From a virus: 57,387 nt of DNA. The stretch covers positions 1 through 57,387 of IMG/VR virus record IMGVR_UViG_3300009285_005182; one strand, given 5' to 3'. Positions within the stretch are counted from its first letter, which is position 1, and each line of letters starts with the position of its first letter. The position numbers were made by a program, and so were the translations under genes. Of the stretch, positions 3,233 to 51,941 are shown piece after piece. Under the pieces are notes generated by a model. That model made no database searches. It was not told the origin of the DNA and saw only the letters and a program-made list of their open reading frames with translations.

Positions 3233-3258
3233 GGTTGTCTCCAATCTATCTGCAGGGG

Positions 3259-3372
3259 CTACTTGAAAATCAGTACCTGTACGATTGCCAGTAGGATACC
3301 GGCTATACCCAGACGCCACTGATGACGCCATAGGTCATAGCCAGCTATCCCACAATATCCAACTATCATCAT
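3259..3372 (-). CDS. Very small single-TM protein
   Basis: 37 aa: MMIVGYCGIAGYDLWRHQWR followed by a hydrophobic helix LGIAGILLAIVQVLIFK. Sits between two real genes; SD weak. One of several tiny membrane ORFs between replication genes in this phage (also 9274, 10304, 11469, 16023, 48554). Function unknown. Confidence 0.45.
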   Translation of the reverse strand: MMIVGYCGIAGYDLWRHQWRLGIAGILLAIVQVLIFK

Positions 3373-3392
3373 ATAGAAGAAGAAGGCTCTCA

Positions 3393-4097
3393 CTATATCC
3401 TGCCTCTGTTTCCTTTATACTTGATTATAGCCTTATAAAGTTCTTCAGTTGAGTGAATGTCTTGAATACAGTGCTTGAGAATATAATCCAGAGCGGCTTG
3501 GTGGCCCGTCAACGCATCCTGCCACACTTCCATATTGAAGGGCAGTCCCTTGGATTTAATCCCAAATAACCTGCAGGCGTTTTGCATCGACCTCTTTGAC
3601 AGTTTGAACTTCCCACTGATAATATCGTAGAGATCTATCACCTTAATTTGCTTCCATTCTGGAAACCCCTTTACCCCCCACTTCGCACAACGAGTTCGGA
3701 GAAATGGTATGTCGTGACGCTGGTAGCGTCCTCCAGCATCCCGGCCATAGTACACAACCAAAATATCAAAATTCCATACATCCTTACAAAATTGTTCTAT
3801 AAGGTGTTTATCTTTAGTGCCGCCCCTCATAATTGGGGCTCTAACCTCAGCAGGCGTGATGCTACGGGCAATAATAGGACCATCCAGAGCTTTGAGACAA
3901 TAGCAAAGGACATGACCCCAATCAGCATCAAGACTACCACCACTCTCTATGTCCAGAAATCCAATTCGCTCTTCTACTCCACGAGCCTCCTCATAACAGG
4001 CAGGGTGTCCACCAGGCATCCCATTATGTCTATGGACACATCTAAAGTTCAGTCTGTCCAGTAGCTCAGTTTTCAGCATTAGGTTTACGTCTTTCAT
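3393..4097 (-). CDS. Predicted DEDD-type 3'-5' exonuclease (RNase H fold)
   Basis: 234 aa, ATG 4097 with SD AGGAAGG. The exonuclease acidic motifs are recognisable: GFLDIESGG (Exo I, D-x-E), GRYQRHDIPFLRTRC (Exo II, acidic residue before a PFL helix) and HCIQDIHSTEELY (Exo III, HxxxD). The whole resembles YprB/DnaQ-like single-domain nucleases rather than a polymerase proofreading domain, which the PolA at 13398 already has. A likely role is DNA processing in replication or recombination. One base separates it from the SPFH gene upstream. Confidence 0.7.
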   Translation of the reverse strand: MKDVNLMLKTELLDRLNFRCVHRHNGMPGGHPACYEEARGVEERIGFLDIESGGSLDADWGHVLCYCLKALDGPIIARSITPAEVRAPIMRGGTKDKHLIEQFCKDVWNFDILVVYYGRDAGGRYQRHDIPFLRTRCAKWGVKGFPEWKQIKVIDLYDIISGKFKLSKRSMQNACRLFGIKSKGLPFNMEVWQDALTGHQAALDYILKHCIQDIHSTEELYKAIIKYKGNRGRI

Positions 4098-4634
4098 TTA
4101 TATTATCCTTCCTGTTTTATTGTCAATGTTGTCAATGAACAGTTTAAGTACTCTGGAATACACGAACTGCAGGGGAATAACCTGCTGTATGTACAACCCT
4201 ATTCCAGTTACCTCATTCCTAATTTCGCTTGCCATCTCATTTAGGTTCCATTGTCCTGGATTCTCTCCTGCAATGATATGTCCCCCAATTACTTTCATAG
4301 AATGAGCGGCCAGTATCTCTTCAGCATCCTCACATTCATACTTGGCCTTATATGGATTCAGAATCCAATACCTTACCGCCCACGAGGATTCTGTACTCTT
4401 GCCCTGGACGACCGCCGCCAGCTCTACCAGCAGTACCTGCTGCTTAACTTCTACCACCGCCATCGTCTGAAAAAGCGGCCAATACATATACCACCCAAAC
4501 TTCTTCACCCGGTACCAACTGCGTATAAATGGCACATGTGTTATTCGCACCGCCGCTTCCCGTGGACTCAGCAATACAAACTGTGGCACAAACTGAAACA
4601 GCCAGTCGAATAATCTACTTAGCCAATCCAACAC
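4098..4634 (-). CDS. SPFH/Band-7 (stomatin-like) domain protein
   Basis: 178 aa, GTG start at 4634 overlapping the end of the deoxyribosyltransferase-like gene. A hydrophobic/aromatic N-terminus (LSRLFDWLFQFVPQFVLL) is followed by WYMYWPLFQTMAVVEVKQQVLLVELAAVVQGKSTESSWAVRYWILNPYKAKYE. This has the pattern of stomatin/flotillin domains (pressure 'WPLFQ', 'VxVKxQV', 'V+Y+I.DPYKA'). The C-terminal part (ASEIRNEVTGIGLYIQQV) fits the SPFH helix region. Likely membrane-associated; such proteins organise membranes and oligomerise. An SPFH protein inside a phage replication cluster is unusual. Confidence 0.6.
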   Translation of the reverse strand: MLDWLSRLFDWLFQFVPQFVLLSPREAAVRITHVPFIRSWYRVKKFGWYMYWPLFQTMAVVEVKQQVLLVELAAVVQGKSTESSWAVRYWILNPYKAKYECEDAEEILAAHSMKVIGGHIIAGENPGQWNLNEMASEIRNEVTGIGLYIQQVIPLQFVYSRVLKLFIDNIDNKTGRII

Positions 4635-5898: not shown

Positions 5899-7077
5899 TT
5901 ACTTGTCGAAGACTCCAATTTCACTTAGTGAACTATAAATATCAGGTGCCAGCCTGTACCAGTTATCCTCAGATTGATGAACGCTCTCAATCTGAAAAAT
6001 TCCACTATACACATACTGGTTAGCAATCCGAAACATTTCACGTTTGCCCGTCATACATACGCCTGCCATCGCCTCCAGTGTCTGAGTAGGCAGGTGCTTT
6101 CCCTGTCTAAACATCCACCTCAATAGCCTGGCTCTCACAGCACTAAGACTGTCCACAAATACCCGTTTCACCAGCTCCGTATCGGAATCATCCCAAGTCT
6201 TCCGCTGGTCCGCGATGCAGTGCCCATATCCAAGGTTCAGCAACTGTTGCACCAGCCTGGTAGCCAGCTCCGCATCCACTGCCGTCGTGTCGTCCGGCAC
6301 TGTCCGAGCCAGAGCCAGCACATCCGCCATCAGGACCACTTTCCTCTGAGCCCCTGCAGGAAGCACTGGAATCTCAGTCAGTTTCTTGGCGTAGTCGTTT
6401 ATCTTCTCAAGCTCCCCCTCAACGACCTTCTGCAGTTGGTACTTCCAGACCTTCTTGCTTTTCATAGACTCCACGATTGGGCCCAGGTTCTGCACACGCT
6501 GATGATGACTTCTCCGAATCCTGTTCATCCGAAAGCTCAGGAACCTCTCACCAAGCTGCTGGTGTTCATCGGCGTAACCATCAATCTTGTTGGTCACACA
6601 AGCAATCATCCCAAACCTTGACCTATACTTCTTCAGCCCACTTTTCCCAGATGCCTTACTGCAATGCTGGTCGAAAGCATCTCTCAGCTCCCCATATACC
6701 TTGGCGACTATTTTCTGGGGGCCATTTATCAAGGCGGTGAAGTCCTTCCAGATAAGCACCTTCCCATTGAGCATCTTAATCAACGAAGGGTCTGTGCCGT
6801 CGTCATCCTCGAAGCCACTCATAAAAGCGTTCTCGGTGGGCGTAGTGAGCAGGAGACAGAACTTCTCACACTCAGCCACTGTCTCCACCGTCAGGGTTTT
6901 TCCACTACCTGCAGGGGCTATGATATAAATCCAAACCGGCTCATCCAGTATAGGGCACAGTAGAGCGGTAATCGTGGCTATGAACACCCTCGGAGCCATC
7001 TCGTCGTCGTTCTCATACTTCAGTTTGCTTAGGTACTCGTTCACGATGGCCCTAAGAGGAGAATCAGGGATGCTCAT
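5899..7077 (-). CDS. P-loop ATPase, probable replication helicase or loader
   Basis: 392 aa. Walker A APAGSGKT at residues 54-61, Walker B-like GKVLIWKDFT around 106-115, and an Asn/sensor-like strand GMIACVTNKIDG. The C-terminal part (residues ~320-390, SLSAVRARLLRWMFRQGKHLPTQTLEAMAGVCMTGKREMFRIANQY) looks like a winged-helix DNA-binding domain. Family resemblance is to phage DUF3987/primase-helicase-type ATPases. No primase or DnaB-type helicase was otherwise recognised, so this is the best candidate for unwinding. The Walker A codons coincide with one copy of the dispersed GCCCCTGCAG motif. Confidence 0.7.
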   Translation of the reverse strand: MSIPDSPLRAIVNEYLSKLKYENDDEMAPRVFIATITALLCPILDEPVWIYIIAPAGSGKTLTVETVAECEKFCLLLTTPTENAFMSGFEDDDGTDPSLIKMLNGKVLIWKDFTALINGPQKIVAKVYGELRDAFDQHCSKASGKSGLKKYRSRFGMIACVTNKIDGYADEHQQLGERFLSFRMNRIRRSHHQRVQNLGPIVESMKSKKVWKYQLQKVVEGELEKINDYAKKLTEIPVLPAGAQRKVVLMADVLALARTVPDDTTAVDAELATRLVQQLLNLGYGHCIADQRKTWDDSDTELVKRVFVDSLSAVRARLLRWMFRQGKHLPTQTLEAMAGVCMTGKREMFRIANQYVYSGIFQIESVHQSEDNWYRLAPDIYSSLSEIGVFDK

Positions 7078-8326: not shown

Positions 8327-9271
8327 TTAGACAATACCTCTTGATTCTTGTACTGCCTTCTCATACGCTGCCTTCAACACATCCCATCCACCAACCAGCG
8401 GCACTTCAATCTTTGCCGGTAGTGTTGGTACTCCCCGTCTTTTCCCCTCCATAGTCTTGGCCTCGGTCGGCCTTGTGTAGATGTGATACCGGGTTACCTC
8501 CTTATCTATCTTGCTCTTAATAACTTTCCCAGAAACCTGGTGTTCTTGTTCCACTTTCTCATTTGTAGTGCTGGCATAGATAGTGATGTGAAGCTCGGCC
8601 TTCCGCACTATCGGCCCTACCGAGCCCTTGGCCAACAGCGGCCTAATACGAGTCACCTGAGACTTGGTGATGGGGTCAGTCTCATTCACATAAGTCAGGT
8701 GTCCGACTACAGCCCATGTGTACCCAGCACCCTCCAGGTCGCCGAGAACTTTCTGGCATCGGGCATGGACCAGCGACCAGCCGTGTCCTTCCCTGCCGTA
8801 CTCCCCGATATGCTCTACCATCTTCTCTGTAGCTAATGCCCTGGCCTCAAAGCCAACCCACTCATCGTGAGTGTCGAAGATAATTCGCTTGCAGGGGCAT
8901 CTTCCATTCTTGCCATCCTCGATTAGGTTGGTGATGATATCCCTATACACCGAGTACGAATCCCTTTTCAGCTTCCGTGCAATGCTGTGGATATTAAAGT
9001 AAGCACCTCTTGCACCAGGTACAGCATTAGCAGCGTTCTCAAAATCAAGACACCACGAATCTGGTATGCTACGCAAGAAGGTCGTCTTGCCTTCACCGGT
9101 CAAACCCGTAACATACAACCTCAAGTCCTCAGCAGCAACAGGATTGTAACCCGTTGTCAGACCTAGGTTTACATACTTCTCAGGCAACGGTATCTCCGAC
9201 GGACTTGTCGCCACCACCTTATTCACAATACTCCCATTTCCACTAGCCCCATTCTTCGCCGTAATAACCAT
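8327..9271 (-). CDS. Sak4-like AAA/RecA-fold ATPase (recombination)
   Basis: 314 aa. Walker A GLTGEGKTTFL near residue 55; Walker B KRIIFDTHDEWV near 128; WAVVGHLTYVNE further on. The pattern is that of phage 'AAA_24'/Sak4 single-strand annealing-associated ATPases, which use a RecA core without the N- and C-terminal domains. Next to a DUF669-like gene and in the same transcript as a PD-(D/E)XK nuclease, this gives a plausible three-part recombination system. Confidence 0.8.
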   Translation of the reverse strand: MVITAKNGASGNGSIVNKVVATSPSEIPLPEKYVNLGLTTGYNPVAAEDLRLYVTGLTGEGKTTFLRSIPDSWCLDFENAANAVPGARGAYFNIHSIARKLKRDSYSVYRDIITNLIEDGKNGRCPCKRIIFDTHDEWVGFEARALATEKMVEHIGEYGREGHGWSLVHARCQKVLGDLEGAGYTWAVVGHLTYVNETDPITKSQVTRIRPLLAKGSVGPIVRKAELHITIYASTTNEKVEQEHQVSGKVIKSKIDKEVTRYHIYTRPTEAKTMEGKRRGVPTLPAKIEVPLVGGWDVLKAAYEKAVQESRGIV

Positions 9272-10303: not shown

Positions 10304-10369
10304 TTATCTCCTTTTGAAATAGAGCATCAATAGTGTTACAATAATAGCCAACGTGACTATTGTTTTCAT
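10304..10369 (-). CDS. 21-residue single-TM peptide
   Basis: MKTIVTLAIIVTLLMLYFKRR: one transmembrane helix with a basic tail. The ATG at 10369 overlaps the stop of the nuclease gene and has a strong SD (GGAGGTGA). The arrangement argues for real, coupled translation despite the tiny size. Function unknown. Confidence 0.5.
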   Translation of the reverse strand: MKTIVTLAIIVTLLMLYFKRR

Positions 10370-11448
10370 TAGTCATCACCTCCACTCCCCACTTCATCCT
10401 CTTTGTCCATAACGTCTCCCTCCTTGGTCCCAGGCCGTAGCTCATACCTCTGCTCAATAGTTGAAGGCCACGCCGACACATCTGAATTGCAGAGGTCAAA
10501 GTACGGGCATTTTCTCCGGTACGCGAAGCAGTGTGTCTTGGTTTGGTCTCTTTCAAATTGTACAGGGTCAGGGTCCATTGCCCACAACGTGTGTATTAGG
10601 TCAAGCTTACTTACAAATTCTGGATGAAACAAAGGCTCGGTGTACTGGATAGCCATAGATGTCATCATCTCTTCGCCTTTTTCCTCATGCTCCTTGTACC
10701 ACTCCTTGACTCTTTGAATATAATGGTTGAATCCACCATCCTCCGGTTTATCCTTGGTTGTCGGACAATACTTAATCCCAGGGATAGTAATCATATCCAG
10801 AATGAATCCAACCAACTTATCACTCCTGCCGCTTATTGTAAGCCAGGACCTCGTAGCTACCCGATACATCCGGCACTGCACACACCAAGTATATCCGGTT
10901 AGTACAGAATCAAACCCCTGTCCTGTGCACTTGGTATCACGTACCCAGACAGACCCATTCCGTGAATCTCTATCAATCCTGTCGATTCGGTTCAGTACTG
11001 GAAGCTCCCCCCGGACCGTCAGCACCTTACTCTCCACGGTCTGCTCCCTTGCAAGTATCTCTATGTACTCAGCCGGTTTCACCACCTCCCAGTAAATACG
11101 AGCTATCGCTATAGCCTTGTCAAGCGTCTCCCCAATCTGATGGGCCTTCGCCGACAACTCTCCAGTTAAGTCCCCACCCTGATTGATTTCCTTCAACAGC
11201 TTCTCGTGGGTCTTGATGACTTCCTCCCTCAGCGTGTCAACCCCGTCAGGCCCCAGCTCCTGCAGCCTGTGCAGATACTTCCCCACACTGGCATTAGGAG
11301 TAAAGGGACTAATCCGCGGTTTTAATCTCCACTTACTCCGGTACAGAAACTTGCGAGCACATCCCAGCCCATCCGTCATGGAGCTGGTGGACACCGGCTT
11401 CTTCCAGTCCTTTAGATTCTCATCCAACCATTCTTTAGTTGTTCCCAT
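10369..11448 (-). CDS. PD-(D/E)XK exonuclease with Fe-S-type cysteines (Cas4/AddB-like)
   Basis: 359 aa. Domain order: early Cys in CARKFLYRSKWRLKP (residue ~30), GKYLHRLQE helix (~57), nuclease core VLNRIDRIDRDSRNGSVWVRDTKCTGQ (D...D-x-K pattern), a QCRMYRVAT helix, and a C-terminal Cys cluster CFAYRRKCPYFDLC. One N-terminal plus three C-terminal cysteines is the layout of 4Fe-4S PD-(D/E)XK exonucleases. Likely resects DNA ends for the Sak4-like/DUF669-like recombination set encoded downstream. Confidence 0.8.
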   Translation of the reverse strand: MGTTKEWLDENLKDWKKPVSTSSMTDGLGCARKFLYRSKWRLKPRISPFTPNASVGKYLHRLQELGPDGVDTLREEVIKTHEKLLKEINQGGDLTGELSAKAHQIGETLDKAIAIARIYWEVVKPAEYIEILAREQTVESKVLTVRGELPVLNRIDRIDRDSRNGSVWVRDTKCTGQGFDSVLTGYTWCVQCRMYRVATRSWLTISGRSDKLVGFILDMITIPGIKYCPTTKDKPEDGGFNHYIQRVKEWYKEHEEKGEEMMTSMAIQYTEPLFHPEFVSKLDLIHTLWAMDPDPVQFERDQTKTHCFAYRRKCPYFDLCNSDVSAWPSTIEQRYELRPGTKEGDVMDKEDEVGSGGDD

Positions 11449-11887: not shown

Positions 11888-11989
11888 TTCTTGGCCTTCC
11901 CATTCTGTTAGTCCTACCCCAGATAAAACGGAGGGGGGCAGAACCGTCAACCAGCTCCACCCCCCACCTGCAGGGGCTCTTAGTTATAG

Positions 11990-12075: not shown

Positions 12076-12234
12076 TCAGCCCTTCTTTTTCTTAGCGACC
12101 CTCTTAGCCAGAGACCTTACCACCGCATAACGCTGGTCTTGTTTTGGAAATTCTTTATTCATTACAGAATTGCCCATAGCTCTGGCGACAAACTCCTTCA
12201 GGGTCTCGCCCTTATGTTTCTTGGGCAGCGGCAT
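12076..12234 (-). CDS. Small basic conserved protein (MPLPKKHKGET)
   Basis: 52 aa from ATG 12234: MPLPKKHKGETLKEFVARAM...NKEFPKQDQRYAVVRSLAKRVAKKKKG. The pattern 'MPLPKxxKGExxxEFVxRxM..xxMxxEFPDxxQRxAV' occurs in many short phage proteins near heads or proteases; role unknown. Overlaps the ERCC4 gene by 23 bp. Confidence 0.65.
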   Translation of the reverse strand: MPLPKKHKGETLKEFVARAMGNSVMNKEFPKQDQRYAVVRSLAKRVAKKKKG

Positions 12235-12793
12235 CTGAGTATCCTCCTGTAAGTATATCCGGCAATGCCTCAAAGCTTTGCTTGAATCGACATGCCAGCA
12301 TAAGTTGTATCAGAAACAAACCAAGCTGCATTTTGCCGGTAGTCTTCCTGGACCTCCAGGGTATCCATAGTACGTTAAATCCATACCTGGCAAACACAAG
12401 ACTCACCCTGTGCATCAGAGCATCTGGGTCAGGTATGTGTGGGTTCTCCCTGAGTATCTCCTGGGGGGTCAGTTCAATCAGAACATACGGGAACTCGCAC
12501 GAGGCCAGCTTCCTGAAGCTCTTGGCCTGCCTGACAGCATCCTGCGGGTCATAGATATTCTTGAATAACTCCCTCTGCCCAGCCTTCCTCTCAATCACAC
12601 AGCAGTCTGGGTACTCCTTCAGTCTGTAATCTCCATACGGCAACGCCACCTTCTGCGTCTGCACCTTAATCAGTATCCTCTCGTATGGCTTCTCAGGATT
12701 AGGAATTCGCACCGCAGCAGGAAAATCTATTGGATACCTCTCTCTTGAATCAACTTCTACTGTGATTAAGTTGGGTACTTTCAAGTATGTCAT
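12212..12793 (-). CDS. ERCC4-type nuclease
   Basis: 193 aa from ATG 12793 (ATGA overlap with the Dam-like gene). Diagnostic sequence: LITVEVDSRERYP (D-S-R-E), LPYGDYRLKEYPDCCVIERKAG (GD...ERK-x2), then PYVLIELTPQEIL. This is the ERCC4/XPF nuclease core without a C-terminal HhH. Related phage proteins act on branched DNA. Together with endo VII and the PD-(D/E)XK enzyme it makes three structure-specific nucleases in this phage. Confidence 0.8.
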   Translation of the reverse strand: MTYLKVPNLITVEVDSRERYPIDFPAAVRIPNPEKPYERILIKVQTQKVALPYGDYRLKEYPDCCVIERKAGQRELFKNIYDPQDAVRQAKSFRKLASCEFPYVLIELTPQEILRENPHIPDPDALMHRVSLVFARYGFNVLWIPWRSRKTTGKMQLGLFLIQLMLACRFKQSFEALPDILTGGYSDAAAQET

Positions 12794-13401
12794 AGACCTA
12801 TCCTTACGTTTGAAAGAGCCTTCTTCACAGGCAAGGCCAAACCTAGGTTGCTGTTGTATAATACCTCCGCATTTTTCTCCCCAAACGCCACCAGCATCGA
12901 AGCTGCCCCACAACCACCTTTAGGCTGGTATTGGCCATCGGCATATAAACTCGCATAGGGTATTCCATCCCTAATTTGTCCTGTTTTTTTATCTGTAACT
13001 TTGTCTGGTTCATCTGCTGGAACAAAATGAACACGGCCCTTGATAAAACATACCACATCAGCTTTGGGAATGTAGGCGTGAAACCACTTTGTATCCGGTC
13101 GAGCAAAGACTAAGGCTATGCCGCCTTCGTCGCTACGGCTGTGTGCTGCCAAGCGACGCATCCATGCCGGGGTATCCGAGCCGTATGGCGGATTCATAAA
13201 GACATTGCCCCACCACTTATGCGTCAGGCCGTCATCTTTGATTGTTAAATGAATCTGTGCCGGAATCCAGGGGACTATATCCTGCCCCGGACTGCACGGG
13301 TCGAGGTCAAAGGTCAAGCCTAACGCCCGGAAAATCTCACGTGGCGTGTACCACTCCTTGCTTTCATTGTACGTTGATTCGTGTGTGAATCCCTTGCTCA
13401 T
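12790..13401 (-). CDS. Phage N6-adenine DNA methyltransferase (Dam-like)
   Basis: 203 aa. WYTPREIFRALGLTFDLDPCSP at the N-terminus and GNVFMNPPYGSDTPAWMRRL (NPPY, motif IV) fit the 'phage N-6-adenine-methyltransferase' family (PF05869). It overlaps PolA (13398) and ERCC4 (12793) by 4 bp each. Probably protects phage DNA from restriction. Target unknown; the over-represented GCCCCTGCAG motif contains adenine only in its TGCAG half. Confidence 0.88.
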   Translation of the reverse strand: MSKGFTHESTYNESKEWYTPREIFRALGLTFDLDPCSPGQDIVPWIPAQIHLTIKDDGLTHKWWGNVFMNPPYGSDTPAWMRRLAAHSRSDEGGIALVFARPDTKWFHAYIPKADVVCFIKGRVHFVPADEPDKVTDKKTGQIRDGIPYASLYADGQYQPKGGCGAASMLVAFGEKNAEVLYNSNLGLALPVKKALSNVRIGL

Positions 13402-16019
13402 CCAACAATCTCCAGTTCAAATTCGATGGGAACTGTGCGTCCGAGCTTCTCTTCCAGTATATCCATTATCGGCGGTCGTGTCAAGTAAATTTCAGCCAGC
13501 CTATCCACTTCCCCCGCCTCATCATACGGAGTATCTATGATGATAGAGTCGTATTTCTGTCCACAGATTACAGACCTCATCTTCTGCTTTCTAAACGCAG
13601 CCAGCATAGCAAACTGGGCACTGAGAGGAATCTGTCCACTCCCTATTGTCTGAATAGGGTAGTTACATATCTCGTTCACTGCCCCTGCAGCATTAGCCCT
13701 ACCACTCCCGAAGGACCTGCTCCACCCAGTCGGCAGCTCAATAAATCCCGTTCTTTCCACTAACTCAATAAGGTCATCCTGCCATCCCTTAAACACCGGG
13801 TGCTGTGCATACCACCTGTCGATATGTTGTTGGCACTCCTCCAGTGACAGGGCCAACCCGCAATCAGACATCGCCGTAGCCTGATACGCTCCCGCTCCAC
13901 CCCTAAACAACACCAGGAAGTTTACTGATTTACAGGATGTGTATATCTTGTAGTGTTCCTTCTTGATAGTATCCGCTGGTAATCCTTTCAGGTGTGGGTA
14001 GAGCATCAGGGTGGTATCCATATGTATGCTCCGGCCCTTCGTGTTATACACCTCCAACAACACTGGACACCCAGACAGTAGAGCTGCCGTCCTCAACTCA
14101 ATCTGGCTAAAGTCATACGCCCTCAATGTGCCCCCCGGAAACCTTGACCTCAAGCACTTGTACACCGGCTTTGGATATGTCTGCATTGGGGGATTCCTCG
14201 CCGTAATCCTCCCCTGTATTGTGCCTCCCTTTCCCTCATCATTCTCCCTACCCCCCTTGTCGAACACCGATGGTACCGGATACCACGTTGGGTATGCCTC
14301 TCCCACATTGAATCTCTGTACAGTAAGACCATTACGCTTATTCCTCAACAGCTTATTGGTGTACGTATTCCTCAAGTGTGAGTACTCATTATACTCCTGC
14401 ACAGCCAGGGCAGTATCTCTCAGCTCGCCATCCGGCAGATGTTGAAGGACCAGATTCATATTAGCCTTCGCCGTAGAAATCTCCCGCTTCACCTCCGTCA
14501 GCTCCACCCTACTGTCGTTCATCAGGTTACACTCTTTCAGCGCCTTGGTGATAAACTCCAACATAGATGCCTTAGTGCCCTCTCCCCCCGTGATGACTCC
14601 CTTAGCCCCTGCAGATACCTGGGCCTTTTCCACCCACTCTGTGTACTCTGCATTGACCTTCCTCAGCTTAACAAGGTCCATCCTATGCCCCGCTCTCTCC
14701 ATTCCAATCACAGCCCACAGGGTATCGCTTCGCATTTTGGCGCAAACCGGTCCCAGCTTGGTGGAATTCTCCCCATACTTCATCTTGATTCTTGCAATAA
14801 TCTCATCAGTCATTGCAATCTGTACGCCGGTGTCCATACAATTATAGTATAGAAGATTAGGGTCGTCCACCCCCTTAGCTCTCCCCGCCCGTGCTGTTAC
14901 CAGTAGCTTGCTGTAGTCAGTGATACCAAACAACAATGCCAACTCCTTCTGGCTCTTCTCCGGCCTTTGCTCATCCAGCAGGAAAGCCCACAGCAGGGAA
15001 TCATCCAGAGTAACGTGATTGGGGTCCAGCAGCATATCCAGCACCGGGTCATTCATCACCATATACAGCATATCAAACTTGAAGTTTTGCCCCTGTAGAA
15101 CATGCCCAGGTTCTCTCACTCTCCTTATCCACTCGTACAGAATCTTCCTTTGTGCTGGGTCATTGAACTGGAACACGCAGGTCCTAATTCCGCAGGGACT
15201 CATCTTGCTCTTCTCCGCTTTGTGCCCAACTGAAATAGTCTTAATCTGCTGGCCGTATGGAATCCCATCCACGTGATAGGACTTGGCTGGAGTGAACACC
15301 GTTTGCTCCACCCCCTCCATAATCCCGTAGGTTTCAATATCCAAACTTAACCTGTCTGGAAACTCCTTCGGTGGTTCTCCCCCAATCTCAGGTACTACCC
15401 ATATCTGGTTCGGTATAAAGTCTCCAGTCAAGTACCTGCGAACCAACACAAAGTGGTCCTGCATCGAAGCCACTGCCTGTGGTTTCCTCCCCGCATGGAG
15501 TATCGCCGGGTGGTTTGTGAAGAACACTGTTGGATGTTTGGCTATAATCTGCAGGGGCTCTATTCCCTCGTGGACACCCTGCATCCGCAAGCCATCATTT
15601 AGGGATGAGACCCCTGTCACAGAGTGTGTTGCATCGGCTCCACAGCACAGAATGATTAGGTCATTATACTTTTCCGACAGCCTCTGTATGTCCAATAGAA
15701 TCTTGGGACGACATGCTTTGATGTCTCCCTTCGCCGTCTTCTGGCCCTGTGGCACTCTGCATCTCACCGCGTTGCTGAGGTACACATCCACCAGCTCAGT
15801 GAATCGACAGGCTTCAATAAACTTCTGTAGAATCTGCCCACTCCATCCAATCCAACTAACCCCCTTCTCATCTTCGTGGACTCCAGGAGCCATTCCCACC
15901 ACTAGCAGTGCACGATTCTTCCCACTTACCTGCAGGGGCCTTGTTGGAATCCCCGGACAGGTGGCAGATTCCCAGAGCCTACAGTCCTTACACTTGTCGT
16001 ATGCGGGAAACTCAATCAT
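13398..16019 (-). CDS. UDG-PolA fusion: uracil-DNA glycosylase domain + family A DNA polymerase
   Basis: 873 aa. Residues 1-200 form a family-4-like UDG: 4Fe-4S cysteines C10-x2-C13...C87-x15-C103, GMAPGVHEDE (42-51) and NHPAIL (169-174). Residues ~224-420 are a 3'-5' exonuclease: LSLDIETYG, GQNFKFDML, YYNCMD. The polymerase follows: motif A YDFSQIELR, motif B KSVNFLVLFRGGAGAY (canonical NFGxxYG changed), motif C GQKYDSIIID where QxHDE is expected (H to Y, E to S). UDG-Pol fusions exist in other phages (SPO1-type). Probably the replicative polymerase; the C-motif change may alter metal handling. Confidence 0.92.
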   Translation of the reverse strand: MIEFPAYDKCKDCRLWESATCPGIPTRPLQVSGKNRALLVVGMAPGVHEDEKGVSWIGWSGQILQKFIEACRFTELVDVYLSNAVRCRVPQGQKTAKGDIKACRPKILLDIQRLSEKYNDLIILCCGADATHSVTGVSSLNDGLRMQGVHEGIEPLQIIAKHPTVFFTNHPAILHAGRKPQAVASMQDHFVLVRRYLTGDFIPNQIWVVPEIGGEPPKEFPDRLSLDIETYGIMEGVEQTVFTPAKSYHVDGIPYGQQIKTISVGHKAEKSKMSPCGIRTCVFQFNDPAQRKILYEWIRRVREPGHVLQGQNFKFDMLYMVMNDPVLDMLLDPNHVTLDDSLLWAFLLDEQRPEKSQKELALLFGITDYSKLLVTARAGRAKGVDDPNLLYYNCMDTGVQIAMTDEIIARIKMKYGENSTKLGPVCAKMRSDTLWAVIGMERAGHRMDLVKLRKVNAEYTEWVEKAQVSAGAKGVITGGEGTKASMLEFITKALKECNLMNDSRVELTEVKREISTAKANMNLVLQHLPDGELRDTALAVQEYNEYSHLRNTYTNKLLRNKRNGLTVQRFNVGEAYPTWYPVPSVFDKGGRENDEGKGGTIQGRITARNPPMQTYPKPVYKCLRSRFPGGTLRAYDFSQIELRTAALLSGCPVLLEVYNTKGRSIHMDTTLMLYPHLKGLPADTIKKEHYKIYTSCKSVNFLVLFRGGAGAYQATAMSDCGLALSLEECQQHIDRWYAQHPVFKGWQDDLIELVERTGFIELPTGWSRSFGSGRANAAGAVNEICNYPIQTIGSGQIPLSAQFAMLAAFRKQKMRSVICGQKYDSIIIDTPYDEAGEVDRLAEIYLTRPPIMDILEEKLGRTVPIEFELEIVG

Positions 16020-19371: not shown

Positions 19372-19883
19372 TAGAATCCTCCATAGTATCCAGCTCCTGC
19401 GTTCCCCGTACCGACTGCTCTTTCTCCCTTAGCCAGTAGAGTCTGGCCACGCCCCTGCAGGATGGCTGCTAACAGGGCATCCTGAGCCTGTCTCCTATCC
19501 CCTGAAAGGTCCCCGGCCATCGCTTGGTAGTACATATCATCAGGGCTACTTTCCATTCCTTGGTTTATAGCTGCTTCTTGAACACCTCTTGCTCCCTCGT
19601 CCCCGGTATGTTTCATAATCCGGTCCATTAGAAGTTGTAGAAGAATTACTCCTCCAATTCCTGTAAGAACCGGATGCTTGGTGGACAGGCCCTTGAGAAA
19701 CGCTCCCATAGCTGGAGATTTAGTGATAGTTTTTCCAATAGTTTTTCCAGCTGCGGACCTCTTGCCTGCTGCTGCCGCCGCCTTCTTCGCAGCCTTCTGG
19801 AGATATGCTGGCACTCCCTGTTGTGCACCAAGTTGTGATACCGCCTGGGCAGCTTCTGCATCGCTAATAACACGTGGAATCAT
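19371..19883 (-). CDS. Probable internal virion protein, Ala-rich with TM segment
   Basis: 170 aa. A basic Ala-rich segment (KAAKKAAAAAGKRSAAGKTI) is followed by a hydrophobic helix HPVLTGIGGVILLQLLMD and a Gly-rich C-terminus (GTGNAGAGYYGGF). It shares one base with the next gene. Probably one of the small ejection proteins; no family recognised. Confidence 0.55.
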   Translation of the reverse strand: MIPRVISDAEAAQAVSQLGAQQGVPAYLQKAAKKAAAAAGKRSAAGKTIGKTITKSPAMGAFLKGLSTKHPVLTGIGGVILLQLLMDRIMKHTGDEGARGVQEAAINQGMESSPDDMYYQAMAGDLSGDRRQAQDALLAAILQGRGQTLLAKGERAVGTGNAGAGYYGGF

Positions 19884-32740: not shown

Positions 32741-32761
32741 ATCAGCCTAAGCCCCTGCAGA

Positions 32762-37985: not shown

Positions 37986-39035
37986 TCATACAGCCAATCC
38001 CCTATTTCTAATCGACTTGACAAACTTCTGTCCAAGCCTCTTAACGACATTATCGTCGTAGTCAGGGTCGTCTGATGATACACGCTTGATGTCGTCGTCA
38101 GAGTGGACTTCGGCAGGAAGATTCCCGTCAACGCCAAGGCCCAGTACAGAGGCTAATGCCAGTCCGGGTTGCCTGCTTGACTTCGTCGGAATACCGAGCT
38201 TCTTTACCTGGTCTCTCACCCCTTGGATGGCAGACTGTATCATCTCGGTTCCAAATTTTTCCTTTGTGTACGGAGACGCCAAAATCTTCTCACGAACTCT
38301 TTGCTGCACCATCGACATAATGGCCGCTTTCCGGTTTTCTTTTATATCAACCGGACTTTCTTTCAGTATTTTACCAAAGAAATCGTCTTTGTCAACCCCC
38401 TCCTGGCACATTTTTTCAACTTTTATCTCGGCATTATCAATCTGGTCCTGCCGAGCCTGGTTCAGCGTGCTTCTGGTATCCTCATCCAAGTCCTCTATCG
38501 TAACCTTCTTGGGGGGAGTATCCTTGCTTTTTCCACCACCCCCGCCCCCACTCTTCCTCACTTCTTCCTGAAACAACTCAAGCATCTTGTCGGGGTCCTC
38601 GTCCATATACACTGCCAGCTTTCTGATGTCTTTCTCATCAACATTGCCGTCTTTGGTTCCGAATACTTTCTTGAACGCTTCCTTAATCTCAAACCCCTCC
38701 TTGCCCTTCTTAAACTGGTCAGCCGCCTCAGTAAATCTCTTATCAGCCCCTGCAGATTTTGTAGCAAGGGTCTTTAGCTCATCTAGTGTAAGCTGCTTGG
38801 TTTCACCATCCACCTTCACTTCGTAGGTGGAGGGTCTATTCTTATCATCTCCCCCTCCTCCTCCACCGCCAGAGCCCTGTCCATCTCCGCCACCAGAGCC
38901 TCCTTTTCCGCCGCTGTCATCTTCCTTCCCACCTCCCCCGGCTGCTCCTCCTGTGTCGCCTCCGTCATCTTTCTCAAATACATATGTAATTCCAGACCTC
39001 CATAAACCAAGTTTCATTAGCTCTTGCAAATTCAT
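37986..39035 (-). CDS. Capsid scaffolding protein
   Basis: 349 aa. Acidic Gly-rich N-terminus (residues 20-68, runs of G with D/K/E), then charged helices: YEVKVDGETKQLTLDELKTLATKSAGADKRFTEAADQFKKGKEGFEI..., a GGGGGGKSKDTPPKK linker, and a basic C-terminus (VVKRLGQKFVKSIRNRGLAV). Highly charged, helical, disordered, located between portal and capsid: classic scaffold. No protease motif recognised. Confidence 0.85.
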   Translation of the reverse strand: MNLQELMKLGLWRSGITYVFEKDDGGDTGGAAGGGGKEDDSGGKGGSGGGDGQGSGGGGGGGDDKNRPSTYEVKVDGETKQLTLDELKTLATKSAGADKRFTEAADQFKKGKEGFEIKEAFKKVFGTKDGNVDEKDIRKLAVYMDEDPDKMLELFQEEVRKSGGGGGGKSKDTPPKKVTIEDLDEDTRSTLNQARQDQIDNAEIKVEKMCQEGVDKDDFFGKILKESPVDIKENRKAAIMSMVQQRVREKILASPYTKEKFGTEMIQSAIQGVRDQVKKLGIPTKSSRQPGLALASVLGLGVDGNLPAEVHSDDDIKRVSSDDPDYDDNVVKRLGQKFVKSIRNRGLAV

Positions 39036-39074: not shown

Positions 39075-41111
39075 CTAAAACTGCGGAGAAGCACCTACGT
39101 TAGGGGCCCCGCCCATCATCATTTTTTGCATCGCTTCTATACTCCCCACTGCACCCTCCGCGGCCTCTTCCGGTTTTGGCATACCTTCCGGCAACATGCC
39201 CATCCCATCCATGTGCTCCTCCCTGTGTGATACGAAAGCATCCCTCACTGCAGGGGCTGCCAGGAAAAACTCTGGACGGGCCATAAATGCGTCAAGCACC
39301 ATCATGTGAACTTTATGCTGGTCCCTGTCTGAAAATATGATTTTGCCCGGAGTCTGCCCGTCGTTAAAAAGTACCAGATTTTCCAGCATCGCTCTTCGGT
39401 AGTTCTGCCACTCCACCTCATTGCCAACCGGAAGTTCAAGAGCTTCCTTCCTCACCAGGATATTGTATTCTGTAAGAGTAATAATCCCCTTCTCCAGAGC
39501 AGAGGTTATCTCCATCTTACGCTGTTCCTTGGAACGGGGGATAGCAGACTCTACACTAACCACAACCTCATCGGGATGGGGTATGGAGTTCTGTGTAAGA
39601 GTCATCTTGCCGGTGCCCGACTCAAGCTGGATACCGGAAAGTGTATCGTCCAGGTTGGTAATATCTATAACCTTGGAATCTCCCCACATCCTCTTGGCAA
39701 TATCCAGCACCACCCGGTAGCACTCGCTGAACGCCTGGGCACAAGCCTTGGCGGTCGGAGTCAACGGAACGCTGGAGGTCTCGAACAAGAAGCCCAGACC
39801 GGCAGACGAATCTACACGGCCTGGAGCATCCCCACCCATAAGCTCCTTGGGCTGGTTGGCAATCCGGTCTTGAATAGCTGCACCCATTTGGATGAGCTGT
39901 ACAGGGAGCGTACCGGATGTCTTTGGGTTTATATTGTAGGGCTTGGCCTCCGGTGTGACGGGGTCAGGCTCATATCTCGCACGCTTCAGCCCATCACGCC
40001 CACGAATAATACTGGCCGGGACACCGGAGGTGGTAGGCTCGTAGAAAATACCGTAGAGGTCCCACTCCTTAGCGTTCTGGAACTGTCTGGCTATGGCAGC
40101 CTCCATCTCGCAGTTCATCGGAATCAAGGTATCCACGTAGGAGCGTCCCCAGAAACTTCCAATATCTATATCTGAAACCACCTGTATGGGAAACGGTCGT
40201 CTGTCCAGCTTATAGTTGTCTCTGGTCACTATCTTCCCACCGGCACTCAGTATATGCTCCTCAAGATAACTGTCCTTGGTCCTGGTCCATATCTCGGCCA
40301 CCTCCACCGCCTTAATCCTACGCTGGTCGCCCTTCTTGCTGCCCAGCCTGCGATTCTTCCCGGAGTTCGGAGGAGTATTATCCAAGTCTGTGGTAATGGC
40401 GGAACTACCTATACCAGTTATGACTCCTCCCCTAGAATCGTCATCAGCCCCTGCAGGTATCATTCCTACAGGAACCTCGGTGGTTTCCATCTTGCTCCAA
40501 ACCTGGGAGCGTGAGTCGGGGGTGTTTGGTAAACCCATCAACCACTGCAGGGGCACTAGTTTTCGGCGGAGGATTCCCATAGCTTTGTGAGTGCTGTCCA
40601 CATCTATAGGCAGTGGTATAATTTCCCAGGGGGGAACTACGTCTATACCAATTCGGTCTTCGTCTATGGCCCACGGAATAAGAGCAGCGGTGCCGTACAA
40701 CAGCAGGACTTTGAAGAATTCCAGCTGCAGGTTGGTGACTTTGGGTCGGGGGAAGACGGACTGTAGCACGACCTGAGCTACACTGGCCTTACGCATACCG
40801 TCCAGGCTGATGCCTTCCTTAGTTACAGCCGGGTAGAGATTCAGGCCCATCAAGCGACCGAGCTGGGATTGGTACTTGGCGACAATCTCCTCATACATGA
40901 ATTCCAGCACGCCCCTCTCATTCATGTAGGAAATCTGGATAGAGCCCTCTCGGTAATTGACGTTCTTGAAGTTTCGGACGCCCCGCATGTACCACCTGGA
41001 AATCCACCAGCGGATGGATGAGGGGTTCTGCTTACGCTTGCCCTCTCCAAGCAAGAATCGTATCGTGTCTTCGGCCTGTGCTGTGTCCGTTGGGATAATC
41101 AGGTCATTCAT
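39075..41111 (-). CDS. Portal protein
   Basis: 678 aa. N-terminal WWISRWYMRGVRNFKNVNYREGSIQISYMNERG..YEEIVAKYQSQLGRLMGLNLYPAV; core FKVLLLYGTAALIPWAIDEDRIGIDVVPPWEIIPLPIDVDSTHKAMGILRRKLV (the 'V.P.EI...' portal pattern); C-terminal helical region IPRSKEQRKMEITSALEKGIITLTEYNILVRKEALELP and an MMGG-rich tail. Size and the gene order (terminase, portal, scaffold, capsid) support the dodecameric portal. A small TM gene lies between terminase and portal. Confidence 0.85.
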   Translation of the reverse strand: MNDLIIPTDTAQAEDTIRFLLGEGKRKQNPSSIRWWISRWYMRGVRNFKNVNYREGSIQISYMNERGVLEFMYEEIVAKYQSQLGRLMGLNLYPAVTKEGISLDGMRKASVAQVVLQSVFPRPKVTNLQLEFFKVLLLYGTAALIPWAIDEDRIGIDVVPPWEIIPLPIDVDSTHKAMGILRRKLVPLQWLMGLPNTPDSRSQVWSKMETTEVPVGMIPAGADDDSRGGVITGIGSSAITTDLDNTPPNSGKNRRLGSKKGDQRRIKAVEVAEIWTRTKDSYLEEHILSAGGKIVTRDNYKLDRRPFPIQVVSDIDIGSFWGRSYVDTLIPMNCEMEAAIARQFQNAKEWDLYGIFYEPTTSGVPASIIRGRDGLKRARYEPDPVTPEAKPYNINPKTSGTLPVQLIQMGAAIQDRIANQPKELMGGDAPGRVDSSAGLGFLFETSSVPLTPTAKACAQAFSECYRVVLDIAKRMWGDSKVIDITNLDDTLSGIQLESGTGKMTLTQNSIPHPDEVVVSVESAIPRSKEQRKMEITSALEKGIITLTEYNILVRKEALELPVGNEVEWQNYRRAMLENLVLFNDGQTPGKIIFSDRDQHKVHMMVLDAFMARPEFFLAAPAVRDAFVSHREEHMDGMGMLPEGMPKPEEAAEGAVGSIEAMQKMMMGGAPNVGASPQF

Positions 41112-41482: not shown

Positions 41483-43321
41483 CTACCCGACGACATTTGC
41501 AGGGGGCCTGGTATTTTCAAACTCTCTTAGGAGGGAGTTATCAATGGCGGTCTGGATGATGGCGGCAAGCTCTTCGCCCGTAAGCTGTGAGGCTGATATG
41601 CCGCTAAGCAGGGGTAGTCCGGGCACCAGGGGCTCGTCGCGTCTGATTTGATCTACCAGGGTCCGCCTGACCGGAGCGGCGGTCTGGGCACGGCCCTTGG
41701 TGTGAATCAGGTAGTTGGACATGGCGATGGTGTCGATGGCGTCGTCGTGAGTCAGTAAGGCCAGGTCCTTGGTGAAGTTCTCGGTCTGCTCGTAGAGAGC
41801 TGAGAAAGGCCATTCCTGGGCACGGTGGGCCGGGTACTTGATCCGGCCCGACTGGAACCTCCATTCGAGACCGGCTATACGCTCCCCCTTGGACTGGCGT
41901 TGGGGGTAGCGTATCGGAACTACTCTCGGCAGCCAGGCCCCCCCAAGCTCACGACCGGCGGCAAGGGCCTTTTCCTTGATGTTGTTGACATACTCTTCCA
42001 TAGAATCGACCAGGTTGCCTTGTGTCCCGCAAGCTTCTATGCCGATGGTGCGGACCATCCACTTGACAGCCATCTCGTAGATTTTCGAGTAGAAAACGTG
42101 GTCCCTGACTTTTCCCAGCCAGAGGTCCAGCACCCATAGGCAGTTGTTGTGGTCGTAGCCGCAGATACCAATAGCACGGTAATCGTTCCTGCCTGCCAAA
42201 CCGGAGGCCGTATCTACAAGGGCGACTTTATACATCGGACCGAAGACTGCTGATATTGCCCCCTTCTTGTCCACCAGCTCGTAGGATTCCTTCTCCTTGG
42301 TAAATACACGTTCCTTCCAGGTTACCTCAGCCTTGCTTGTTATCAGGTGGTCCATCTCGTGAGGAGGGATAGAGCGGAATTCAGCTATGTTGTATTCGTT
42401 AAGGTCGGGGTTTACCTGGAGGAGACGGGTTTCGTCGGTCAAGGGCTTGTTGAGGTACTCCGACGAGAAGGATGAGGAGCCTATTTCTTCCTTGCGTGCG
42501 TCAAGAAACTCCTGGGTCCACATACCAGGCCAGAGAATTACAGTTTTACCCGGGTTTCTGGGGTCCGGGCCCAAGGCCGCATAAACACGACGCATCCAGT
42601 TTTTGAAACGCGGGTCTTCCCCCTCACAGGCACGGTACAAAAGGCAACGGCGGTTAATCATCGTTCCAATCCAGAACATCGACGAGCCTTGGGTGAGCAT
42701 CGGGATTATCTGGCGGAACAGGATGTACTCATATTTCTCGGTGATTAGATACTGAGAGTCCGAGGCCCCTGCAGATAGGTCGGCGTCAAACTCAGGATCG
42801 TCCATAATAAAGAGCTGGGGGCGAGCACCACGCTTGCGGCCCATGATGCTGAAACCCTGAACAGCGGCGCCGTTGTTGAGTTGCAGATAATTGTGGTTCC
42901 AAATGGCGGCTCCCCGCCTGGGTTTCATCTCGCCGAAATCTGCAAGGATTTGGGAATTCTCCGTATATTCACGCATCAACTTGTCGAACCGATTTTGGAT
43001 GAGGCGGTCCGTGGCCATAGCAAGAGTGATACTGTAGTAGGGTCTGGTGAGAGACAGGAGCAGTGGTATTTCACAGCCAATGACTACAGATTTACCAAAC
43101 CCGCGTGGAGCTGCTTGGGCGTTTCGGGCCCAGTCTCCAAGGTCATATATCATCTGGTGGTGGAAGGGAGGAGAGGGATAGAAGCCGCCCTCATAGAAGG
43201 CGTCACCCCGTGGTCGGAGGTACAGGTTTCTGAACAAACTCCAAGCTTCCACGAGCCGCCGTGGAGAAGAGTGGTCACACAACACTGCCAGCCTTGCCTG
43301 TTTCTGTGCTTCCGGGTTCAA
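41483..43321 (-). CDS. terL: Terminase large subunit
   Basis: 612 aa. ATPase: Walker A AAPRGFGKSVV (residues ~69-79), Walker B LFIMDDPEFD (~167-176), coupling motif GTMINRR (~217). Nuclease: VALVDTASGLAGRND, an acidic IGIEACG, and LTHDDAIDTIAM. It packages DNA into the prohead. Start is unclear: TTG 43321 has no SD, while AAAGGAG lies 55-60 bp upstream and the frame is open to it through YYPLPPDYAT but holds no ATG/GTG/TTG there. The true N-terminus may be longer, with a rare start codon. Confidence 0.92.
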   Translation of the reverse strand: MNPEAQKQARLAVLCDHSSPRRLVEAWSLFRNLYLRPRGDAFYEGGFYPSPPFHHQMIYDLGDWARNAQAAPRGFGKSVVIGCEIPLLLSLTRPYYSITLAMATDRLIQNRFDKLMREYTENSQILADFGEMKPRRGAAIWNHNYLQLNNGAAVQGFSIMGRKRGARPQLFIMDDPEFDADLSAGASDSQYLITEKYEYILFRQIIPMLTQGSSMFWIGTMINRRCLLYRACEGEDPRFKNWMRRVYAALGPDPRNPGKTVILWPGMWTQEFLDARKEEIGSSSFSSEYLNKPLTDETRLLQVNPDLNEYNIAEFRSIPPHEMDHLITSKAEVTWKERVFTKEKESYELVDKKGAISAVFGPMYKVALVDTASGLAGRNDYRAIGICGYDHNNCLWVLDLWLGKVRDHVFYSKIYEMAVKWMVRTIGIEACGTQGNLVDSMEEYVNNIKEKALAAGRELGGAWLPRVVPIRYPQRQSKGERIAGLEWRFQSGRIKYPAHRAQEWPFSALYEQTENFTKDLALLTHDDAIDTIAMSNYLIHTKGRAQTAAPVRRTLVDQIRRDEPLVPGLPLLSGISASQLTGEELAAIIQTAIDNSLLREFENTRPPANVVG

Positions 43322-46000: not shown

Positions 46001-46036
46001 ACTATGTACCTTTCTGTTCTGAAGGCAAAAAACCAA

Positions 46037-46477
46037 AAAATTCGTTTGTCCTTATTTTATACGCGGGCGCGTGTAGAATGTTCGTAGGAATCTGAGGAAT
46101 TTAGAAAAATTTTTTCGGTGGCAAAGAGGGGGTGCACGTAATATACGAAAATCGACCCCTTTCCGGGAGAGGGGTAAAGTAAGATAAATATCTATTTACA
46201 TCACCTATACCCCTGTAGGGGGTTATTTTTTGGAAATTACTGACAACTACCCTGTTTTTTTGGCAAAAAATAAGGGTTGTGCAACTGGCATTTTGGAAGA
46301 GATTATTGGACCTGTTTTTAAGGGGAGGGAGGGGGGTCGAAAACATCTGGATTGTCGGTAAAATACTGTTGGTCAAAAAGAGGAAAAGCCCCTGCAGGAG
46401 CTGGTTTTGAAAGTGGCTCTTGACTACCAACTGGTTATTTTGTAGTCGGCAACCAGGGTATCTGCAGGGGCATGGGT
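46037..46477 (-). other. Intergenic region with promoter-like and hairpin elements
   Basis: No convincing gene: the 110-codon minus frame at 46101-46430 is Phe/Pro-rich and unlike the neighbours. Minus strand holds GACTAC...GTAGTC, AGCTCC-TGCA-GGGGCT followed by TTTTCC (46405-46385, terminator-like and made from a copy of the GCCCCTGCAG motif), a second copy at 46462, and CGCGCCCGCGTATAAAAT about 60 bp upstream of the 46000 start (-10-like, with an inverted repeat ACGCG-GG-CGCGT). Confidence 0.4.
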
Positions 46478-50528: not shown

Positions 50529-50668
50529 TGTGTCTTATCCTTTTCGTGCTTCAAAGCAGGAGTGCTCAACCGAGTCGGTTAGTCATACCATTTTCCCGAT
50601 GCCGGGAAACGTCCCCGCCTGCCTTTGCGGCTACGGCTGTTTCACCGGGTGGGGCTGCCTTGCCGGGC
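50529..50668 (-). ncRNA. Structured leader upstream of 50528 gene
   Basis: 140-nt gap in an otherwise packed operon. On the minus strand it folds into TTTCCCG-GCAT-CGGGAAA (7 bp), AACCGA-C-TCGGTT, TGCTT..AAGCA and GCC-GCAAA-GGC. Dense in GC hairpins but without the conserved ends of the 51961 and 52298 elements. Could be a cis-regulatory RNA; no known riboswitch class recognised. Confidence 0.4.
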
Positions 50669-50851
50669 CTAAAGCTCATTTCCATTAGCGTCAAAAATTC
50701 CGGTGTATTCTAATTCGTACCACTCCCAAGCATCTAAGCTGCAGTTGTCGCAGTGAAACTCATAGCGCAGGCCACTGTCCTGAATTTCTGAATCACCATA
50801 GCTTACATTTTCACTACCGCAGATCGGACATACGCCCGGCTGTAACATCAT
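50669..50851 (-). CDS. Zinc-ribbon protein
   Basis: 60 aa: GVCPICGSENVSYGDSEIQD...YEFHCDNCSLDAWEWYELEYTG, two C-x2-C pairs of a zinc ribbon. Overlaps the upstream gene by 4 bp. Probably a small nucleic-acid or protein adaptor. Confidence 0.7.
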   Translation of the reverse strand: MMLQPGVCPICGSENVSYGDSEIQDSGLRYEFHCDNCSLDAWEWYELEYTGIFDANGNEL

Positions 50852-51177
50852 TCACCTTCCTTCTCCGCCTCGCGGATAGTGGCCTCGGCTTTTTTGCGGC
50901 GTTCCAATGTTGTCCTATAAGCATAAAACTGGCCGCCGAGCTTGCCTTTGTCCGACACCTCAAGCGGTTCAGATAAGAGGTCTCTGCACGCCGCCAGCAG
51001 CTTGGCGTGGCTGTTGCAGGCACGGACAATGAAAGTGGCATTGGCTTCGTTCCATTCGGGCTTGTCTCTACGGTTCAGAACCGCAATAATTATATCGCCT
51101 GATTTAATAACCCAACCCCTTTCAAGCCAAGATGGTGCACGCCGCCAAGGCGTTGGCGTATGTGTTGTTTCGCTCAT
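50848..51177 (-). CDS. Small conserved phage protein
   Basis: 109 aa: THTPTPWRRAPSWLERGWVIKSGDIIIAVLNRRDKPEWNEANATFIVRACNSHAKLLAACRDLL. The 'HTPTPW...NAxFIVRACNSHxxLLxA' pattern is widespread in phage and bacterial small proteins of unknown role. Lies 11 bp downstream of the E1-like gene and so may belong to the same transcript. Confidence 0.75.
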   Translation of the reverse strand: MSETTHTPTPWRRAPSWLERGWVIKSGDIIIAVLNRRDKPEWNEANATFIVRACNSHAKLLAACRDLLSEPLEVSDKGKLGGQFYAYRTTLERRKKAEATIREAEKEGE

Positions 51178-51188
51178 TTTAGTCGCCT

Positions 51189-51941
51189 CTATTCTCCAAA
51201 CCTAACAGTACCCATACTCAGTGTCTCAACCATAAAATCTCTAACTACAGGATACCCATTCAACCAATTCACCAACTGACTGACCATCAGTCCCGCCGCA
51301 ATATATGCCCCATACATAGTCAGCCTGTCCGTACATGCCCCCTGAAAAGCCTGCTCATCACTATAAAAGCTCTCCAGGTAGTATCCTACATCCTCCCGCC
51401 TATTCATCTGAATAGTAACTATCCTAATCGCTCCGCTGGCCACTCTCGAATCAATCCAGAGCCCCTGCAGATGCCTGGTTTTCAGAATATCCACCCATAT
51501 CTCCTGCCTGGCTCTCATTGTGTCCACGCAGCAGAACACAACCTTCTTGGCCCACCTCTCCCTGGTTAAGCCTGTTCTCCACGGATTAAGAAGTCTCTGG
51601 AAAGTTGCAGACATACCACAAATCTTGGGGAAATCTCTGTAGATAACCTCAAACTTATCTTTACCCACATCACTGGGAGACCACCCCTGTGTCCCTATAT
51701 TCTTGGCCTCAATCCTGTCCGGGTCTGCTCCTACCACTCTGTCTGTGCCTATAGCATTCAGCAAAATGGCCACCTGTCTGCCCGTAGCTCCAAGCCCTGC
51801 AATTCCAATGTCCAGCTCCCTGAACTTGTCCAGCGGCAGTGTTGTCCTGAACCTCAAGTCAGCCTCACTCAAATCAACACCTAGTGTACTCTGCAGGGGC
51901 TTGTCCTCACTACTCGTTGTAATTTTAGTACTCGTACTCAT
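51189..51941 (-). CDS. E1-like (ThiF/MoeB family) adenylyltransferase of a Ub-like system
   Basis: 250 aa. Nucleotide-binding GIAGLGATGRQ (residues 46-56, the E1 GxGxxG loop), GADPDRIEAKNIGTQGW (71-87, where D-x-D...N is expected), VVFCCVDTMRARQ (134-146, D...R). A candidate catalytic cysteine is C203 in GACTDRLTMYGAYIAAGLMVSQ, the position before the last conserved helix. E1 enzymes adenylate the Ubl C-terminus and pass it as a thioester to E2. It is the last of the four conjugation genes and has its own structured leader (51961-52087). Confidence 0.85.
   Translation of the reverse strand: MSTSTKITTSSEDKPLQSTLGVDLSEADLRFRTTLPLDKFRELDIGIAGLGATGRQVAILLNAIGTDRVVGADPDRIEAKNIGTQGWSPSDVGKDKFEVIYRDFPKICGMSATFQRLLNPWRTGLTRERWAKKVVFCCVDTMRARQEIWVDILKTRHLQGLWIDSRVASGAIRIVTIQMNRREDVGYYLESFYSDEQAFQGACTDRLTMYGAYIAAGLMVSQLVNWLNGYPVVRDFMVETLSMGTVRFGE

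Follow-up and report, generated by a model that had tools for sequence, protein, structure and literature searches.

Short sequence words repeated over a whole genome are known from several systems. The localized nicks of T5-, phiKMV- and tf/LUZ24-like phages are made at strict short words that lie across genes and gaps, are conserved across phages of little DNA similarity and differ by small spelling variants between relatives (PMC3517423, PMC11780129). Cluster A mycobacteriophages carry up to about 30 asymmetric stoperator sites per genome, which are bound by repressor, oriented with transcription and spelled in dialects that diverge together with the phages and their repressors (PMC6550527). 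DNA uptake sequences (DUS) of Neisseriaceae are found in bacterial chromosomes, where they are read by ComP; they have a shared core and lineage dialects and lie in both orientations in coding and intergenic DNA (PMC3630211). Chi sites are strand-specific words tied to recombination and are over-represented in some phages (PMC3784561). Here we describe a 10-bp word, GCCCCTGCAG, in IMG/VR virus record IMGVR_UViG_3300009285_005182 (positions 1 to 57,387; this whole stretch of 57,387 nucleotides is referred to as the window), together with its counterparts in related phages.

The word resembles each of these systems in part. Like the nick sites it is strict and over-represented in the window phage and its relatives, but known nicks occupy one strand at about 4-14 sites, whereas here both strands carry sites (12 + 12 in the window, balanced in most relatives), mostly 20-60 in all, the word changes between clades, and it is known from sequence alone. 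Its spelling diverges with phage lineage, as in stoperators; unlike stoperators, its orientation ignores genes (12 same and 12 opposite to transcription in the window, with pooled balance in the relatives) and its spacing is even on each strand. DUS are of similar length and share its dialects and mixed placement, but the word was found in lytic-looking phages, with no host copy among the matches listed. Host Chi is over-represented where recombinases are absent, whereas these phages encode recombination proteins and their words differ from known Chi. Each known kind thus fails at least one tested or expected feature, although the word may still work like one of them. The word is strict, selected and lineage-specific and follows phage phylogeny, and its sites form two interleaved, nearly even arrays, one per strand; it is very probably a strand-specific array read by a DNA-processing factor that is inherited with the phage.

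Abundance and strictness of the word

As counted in a preliminary description of the window, GCCCCTGCAG is present in 24 exact copies, 12 per strand, spanning 3250-51900. Of all 10-mers in the window it is the most strongly over-represented: an order-2 Markov model predicted 0.17 copies, and dinucleotide-preserving shuffles gave a mean of 0.20 and never reached 24, in agreement with the earlier estimate of about 0.1. Eighteen one-mismatch copies were found, five of which vary solely at the first base, so that the 9-mer CCCCTGCAG occurs 29 times (24 exact 10-mers and 5 first-base variants). CCCCTGCAG forms the functional core, mostly with a G in front of it and an A or G behind it. The remaining one-mismatch words were hardly enriched, and recognition is therefore strict. 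The sequences flanking the copies are unrelated, save for a weak preference for A before and A/G, T/A after the word. Sites lie in coding and intergenic DNA and in several reading frames, with 12 along and 12 against the gene strand in the window and a similar pooled balance in the other phages of the group. The reported absence of the word from the long fibre gene held for exact sites (none at 28309-31710), and none lies left of 3250.

Three other descriptions of the element were rejected: a mobile repeat (repetitive extragenic palindromic sequence or miniature inverted-repeat transposable element), as the flanks are unrelated and most aligned sites have no insertion; hairpin-forming flanks, as covariation is absent; and an orientation of the stop-like kind relative to genes, as none was seen.

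Dialects in related phages

About 130 related viral contigs, 25 of them long, were gathered via two terminase profile searches. Of the colinear phages, the nearest is G004 (59.5 kb; its terminase is 61% identical); it carries 27 copies of the word, with 3 of 18 alignable window sites intact; word density is retained between the two phages while individual sites turn over. The close relative G068, with a capsid protein 72% identical to that of the window, has no GCCCCTGCAG and no CCCCTGCAG; unbiased k-mer counts showed that it spells CCCCTGCAA 29 times instead. To count absence of the motif from similar phages as evidence against it, as was suggested previously, is accordingly misleading. Other relatives spell the word CCTCTGCAG, GCCCCGCAG or CCTCCGCAG, and almost all lineages have a genome-wide word of their own (CCCCTGCAG, CCCCTGCAA, CCTCTGCAG, GCCCCGCAG, CCTCCGCAG, CCCCGACAG, ACCCCCACTG and others). 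In the wider contig set CCTCCGCAG was found in dozens of contigs, along with ACCCCGACAGA, ACCCCCACTG(G/A), TTCCCCGCT and others. The first half of the dialect words is C-rich in common and the second half variable. On TerL and PolA trees the dialects cluster as perfectly as possible, with 11 changes for 12 labels (minimum 11).

A few homologous sites are rewritten from one dialect to another: CCCCTGCAG at 22900 is CCTCCGCAG in seven relatives (G073, G077, G079, G081, G084, G087 and G091), position 6351 is CCTCTGCAG in G069, and positions 51462 and 33055 are CCCCTGCAA in G068. This would be expected if the one reader of each lineage had changed its taste and the array had followed.

Further words were noted in single relatives. 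G088 (L339-L341) has its own word CCGTCCCCCGTC in about 30 copies, and G083 (L342-L343) has CGTGGTTCCAGAT in 9 copies, even on each strand. In G004 (L027-L029) AAG and several consecutive G often come after the word (CCCCTGCAGAAGGGG), a sequence that could fold into a small hairpin; this is not group-wide. Several contigs were set aside: L009, the sole family member among 15 contigs in a convergent-pair scan of viral contigs for the window's word, is a 100% identical fragment of the same phage; G014/L022 (4 sites in 15 kb) has a composition rich in similar words and few, weak protein matches; and the many copies in G008 and G018 belong to repeats of 60-bp period. No close cultured relative was found among phages or plasmids.

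Selection on the sites

Between phage pairs at 70-75% DNA identity, 848 of 1285 sites were intact, where the background of those alignments predicts 121, and at 65-70% identity 202 of 463 against 19, the counts being pooled over pairs of shared ancestry and hence not independent. Word sites are approximately 5-10 times better conserved than the surrounding DNA. Because the word is strict, lies on both strands, in intergenic and coding DNA and in several frames, and is conserved at its sites above background, selection on DNA rather than protein, as first proposed in the preliminary description, is strongly supported.

Spacing and orientation of the sites

Neighbouring sites tend to switch orientation, in 156 of 238 neighbours against 122 expected in the first nine phages; over 23 genomes, 485 orientation changes were counted against 383 expected. 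This alternation arises because the sites of each strand are nearly evenly spaced. The summed per-strand coefficient of variation (CV) was 13.9, compared to 19.2 +/- 0.63 for random placement, and none of 2000 placements was as low. For the exact 10-mer of the window the per-strand CV was 0.54 against 0.89 expected (P 0.003), and in a comparison with control words of equal number in the same genome the window gave 0.56 against 0.96, with 0.4% of controls as even. The per-strand gap distribution is depleted at both extremes, the very short and the very long, gaps on one strand average ~1.5-4 kb, and divergent pairs closer than 100 bp are rare.

Most words, not all, obey this even per-strand spacing. 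Evenness was not significant in G004, G080, G091 and G086, and the word of G095 was not even at all. Longer words, TCACTCCGGGCTCC, GGACCCCGGAAGGGT and CCCCGACCCGTC, are repeated in G086 (L312-L314), G085 (L324-L326) and G095 (L333-L335), respectively, and are hardly or not evenly spaced; G086 and G095 may carry something else, and the repeated words of all three may be a different element.

Positions of the sites in the window

From the left, the exact copy at 3250..3259 (-) is convergent with a first-base variant, ACCCCTGCAG, at 3052..3061 (+), and 6909..6918 (-) is convergent with 6350..6359 (+), which is intact at the homologous site in G004 and spelled CCTCTGCAG in G069. The copy at 11968..11977 (-) is intergenic. 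Four copies lie inside polA, at 13681..13690 (+), 14605..14614 (+), 15549..15558 (-) and 15930..15939 (-), and are followed by 16417..16426 (-), whose homologous place in G004 is intact, 19451..19460 (+), 22899..22908 (+; the site rewritten in seven relatives), 24208..24217 (-) and 26337..26346 (+). Beyond the fibre gene, an intergenic copy at 32751..32760 (+) is convergent with 33055..33064 (-), 38746..38755 (+) with 39248..39257 (-), and 40447..40456 (+), in the portal gene, with 40545..40554 (-). The copy at 42765..42774 (+) is inside terL; those at 46388..46397 (+) and 46462..46471 (-) are intergenic and convergent; and 51461..51470 (+), intact in G004 and CCCCTGCAA in G068, is convergent with 51891..51900 (-). 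The other variants with an intact 9-mer core are TCCCCTGCAG at 4167..4176 (-) and 55092..55101 (+) and ACCCCTGCAG at 19176..19185 (-) and 35592..35601 (+).

The window also has a set of repeated 12-mers, which amounts to no more than a tandem repeat near the contig ends: the 12-bp unit ACACCGAGTCCC is repeated at 2370-2458 and 56756-57056, and one repeat copy lies inside the DUF6745 gene (1768-2877), in the high-GC segment.

Replication and recombination genes and a candidate reader

Four genes of a replication/recombination module lie on the minus strand of the window: an AAA_24 ATPase at 8327..9271, which we take to be a Sak4-like recombinase and call Sak4; a PD-(D/E)XK RecB/Cas4-like nuclease at 10369..11448; an XPF/ERCC4-family nuclease at 12212..12913; and a family A DNA polymerase with an N-terminal uracil-DNA glycosylase (UDG) domain at 13398..16019, conserved through the phage group. 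A relative, G090, carries no word and is without the UDG-PolA, Sak4-like ATPase and ERCC4 nuclease genes, although its capsid, portal and terminase genes are shared. The word therefore goes with the replication/recombination module rather than with the virion, and its earlier interpretation as a packaging signal is unlikely.

The product of the gene at 12212-12913 is the candidate reader or cutter of the word. Pfam ERCC4 was matched in 15 of 19 homologues, the AlphaFold2 model had a pLDDT (predicted local distance difference test) score of 89, Foldseek matched it to archaeal XPF and Hef (E 1e-6), and the GDx(n)ERK motif is present, with GDY and ERK invariant; on this evidence it is assigned to the XPF/ERCC4 nuclease family. 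Among the shared genes, it is ERCC4 whose divergence follows that of the word most closely (r 0.75, partial 0.42). The gene at 44145-45251, just upstream of terL, was rejected as a reader, as its divergence does not follow the word. No repressor-like protein was found to be universal among the word-bearing phages.

Other genes of the window were annotated in passing. A Dam-like adenine methyltransferase is encoded at 12790-13401, and two endonuclease VII-like genes at 5051-5575 and 45599-46036. ThiF/E1-like, JAB-like and ThiS/ubiquitin-like genes lie close together (51189-51941, 52713-53762 and 55409-55648, respectively), and the block is also found in G004, G068, G069, G076, G078 and others; it looks like a phage ubiquitin-like module.

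Proposed mechanism

We propose that GCCCCTGCAG is the window phage's dialect of a recognition word for a machine inherited with the replication/recombination module. Each strand would have to offer such a machine one or more sites every few kb, and a second site close by would add little. At each word, one strand would be nicked or otherwise opened, and the opened strand would serve as a starting point for UDG-PolA and for the Sak4/RecB-like recombination proteins. The leading candidate for the cutter is the XPF/ERCC4-like nuclease (12212-12913), alone or with a partner. Words that act as strand-specific starting points would fit a core module without a recognisable primase or helicase, and known phage nick systems likewise use strict short words scattered through genes (PMC3517423, PMC11780129). 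This full mechanism of nicking and initiation is offered tentatively.

A number of observations weigh against it. Nicking at the word is deduced from sequence, and known nick arrays are confined to one strand, whereas the window phage carries the word on both. Convergent pairs closer than 500 bp are about twofold commoner than expected, and if both strands were nicked at once at such pairs, the genome could be broken. Enzymes of the XPF family usually recognise structure rather than sequence. The correlation of ERCC4 with the word is modest, exceeds the others by a small margin and ignores kinship, and the gene at 11549-11950 has an equal partial correlation with the word. G089 has PolA, Sak4 and a divergent ERCC4, yet no clear word; G095 has a repeated word (not evenly spaced) and no detected ERCC4. 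Finally, the lack of a primase or replicative helicase among the window genes is judged from Pfam and PHROGs only.

Alternative explanations

The main rival, which accounts for most of these observations and falls only a little short in likelihood of the nick and initiation sites proposed above, though itself only a possibility, is a Chi-like role. The word would control a nuclease or helicase-nuclease running from DNA ends, either the phage RecB-like protein or host AddAB/RecBCD, and degradation would be turned into 3' ends for annealing by Sak4, hence a site per few kb on each strand. This would explain why the spacing is even and strand-specific, why sites are placed without regard to genes and why the word is associated with the Sak4/RecB-like module, and the G-rich complements CTGCAGGGGC and CTGCGGAGG somewhat resemble known Chi words. 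Phages without recombinases over-represent host Chi, but recombinase-encoding phages tend to avoid it (PMC3784561), and the present phages encode one. Words of 9-13 bp, as some of these are, are long for a Chi used throughout a host, no host genome carrying the word was found among the matches listed, and this reading does not predict that convergent pairs under 500 bp should be twice as common as expected.

It is doubtful that the word is bound by a phage protein that covers the genome, such as a silencer or a nucleoid, partition or segregation protein, in the manner of Cluster A stoperators. The many copies per genome, the dialects that diverge with the phages and the coding and intergenic sites would all be explained, and stoperators are likewise numerous with lineage-specific spelling; they hold, however, one orientation relative to transcription (PMC6550527), whereas the window has 12 sites along and 12 against the genes. 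Such a protein gives no obvious reason for sites to be evenly placed on each strand taken by itself, and no universal repressor-like protein accompanies the word.

Hosts may instead use lineage-specific words (a DNA uptake sequence, Chi or another marker) that their phages copy, and the dialects do resemble those of the DUS of Neisseriaceae (PMC3630211). The preliminary description had listed an uptake-like sequence among the possible roles, and genome scans lent this no support among the matches listed. The densest of 49 genomes checked was a Cyanobium, with 41 copies per Mb (the phage has 418 per Mb), among the matches listed, and a scan of species genomes for close word pairs returned apparent background only, among the matches listed. 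No unrelated virus in the viral contig scans carried the word at phage density, the dialects track the phage tree, and uptake requires no evenness on each strand. A host-borne word is unlikely. As a separate observation, GCCCCTGCAG is mildly enriched on both strands of Cyanobium/Synechococcaceae genomes (G036, G022, G026 and G046; 20-41 per Mb), the reversed control word occurring at about 0.4-3 per Mb in Cyanobium-like genomes. A capsid profile had no match in 1677 genomes of five phyla (392 of the phylum of a planctomycete genome, 400 of a chloroflexotal, 345 of a desulfobacterial, 332 of a patescibacterial and 208 of a verrucomicrobial genome), a search in which empty answers prove nothing, and the one paper found from the IMG sample numbers held no host hint.

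That a sequence-specific primase or RNA polymerase begins lagging-strand fragments at the word is very unlikely. The per-strand spacing of 1.5-4 kb is near the usual bacterial Okazaki fragment length, and since no primase was recognised an unusual one is conceivable; known phage primases, however, read about 3-5 bases, not 9-13, and no candidate primase gene was found. Composition, codon bias, mobile-repeat contamination or an assembly artefact can be dismissed, as these are refuted by the Markov and shuffle tests, the divergent flanks, the varied frames, the intergenic sites, the occurrence in independent phages from different samples and the conservation of sites.

Implications

It is conceivable, though well short of established, that in this widespread, uncultured group of tailed phages DNA synthesis and recombination are started or controlled at dozens of word points per genome, placed near-periodically on each strand, rather than at a single origin served by a primase and helicase of its own. 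Word and reader would change together between lineages, and the spelling would act as a self-mark that bars foreign templates. We know of no phage replication or recombination system that is organised from dozens of near-periodic, word-marked points. If the proposal is true, the phages of a large group label both strands throughout their genomes with a lineage-specific word whose spacing is selected, and DNA replication and recombination would be seen to be started or policed in a new way. The old, unsolved question of why certain phages have site-specific nicks could then be approached directly, and a natural set of matched pairs of enzyme and word would be available. The dialects also serve as a simple marker by which metagenomic phages can be sorted and their hosts perhaps found.

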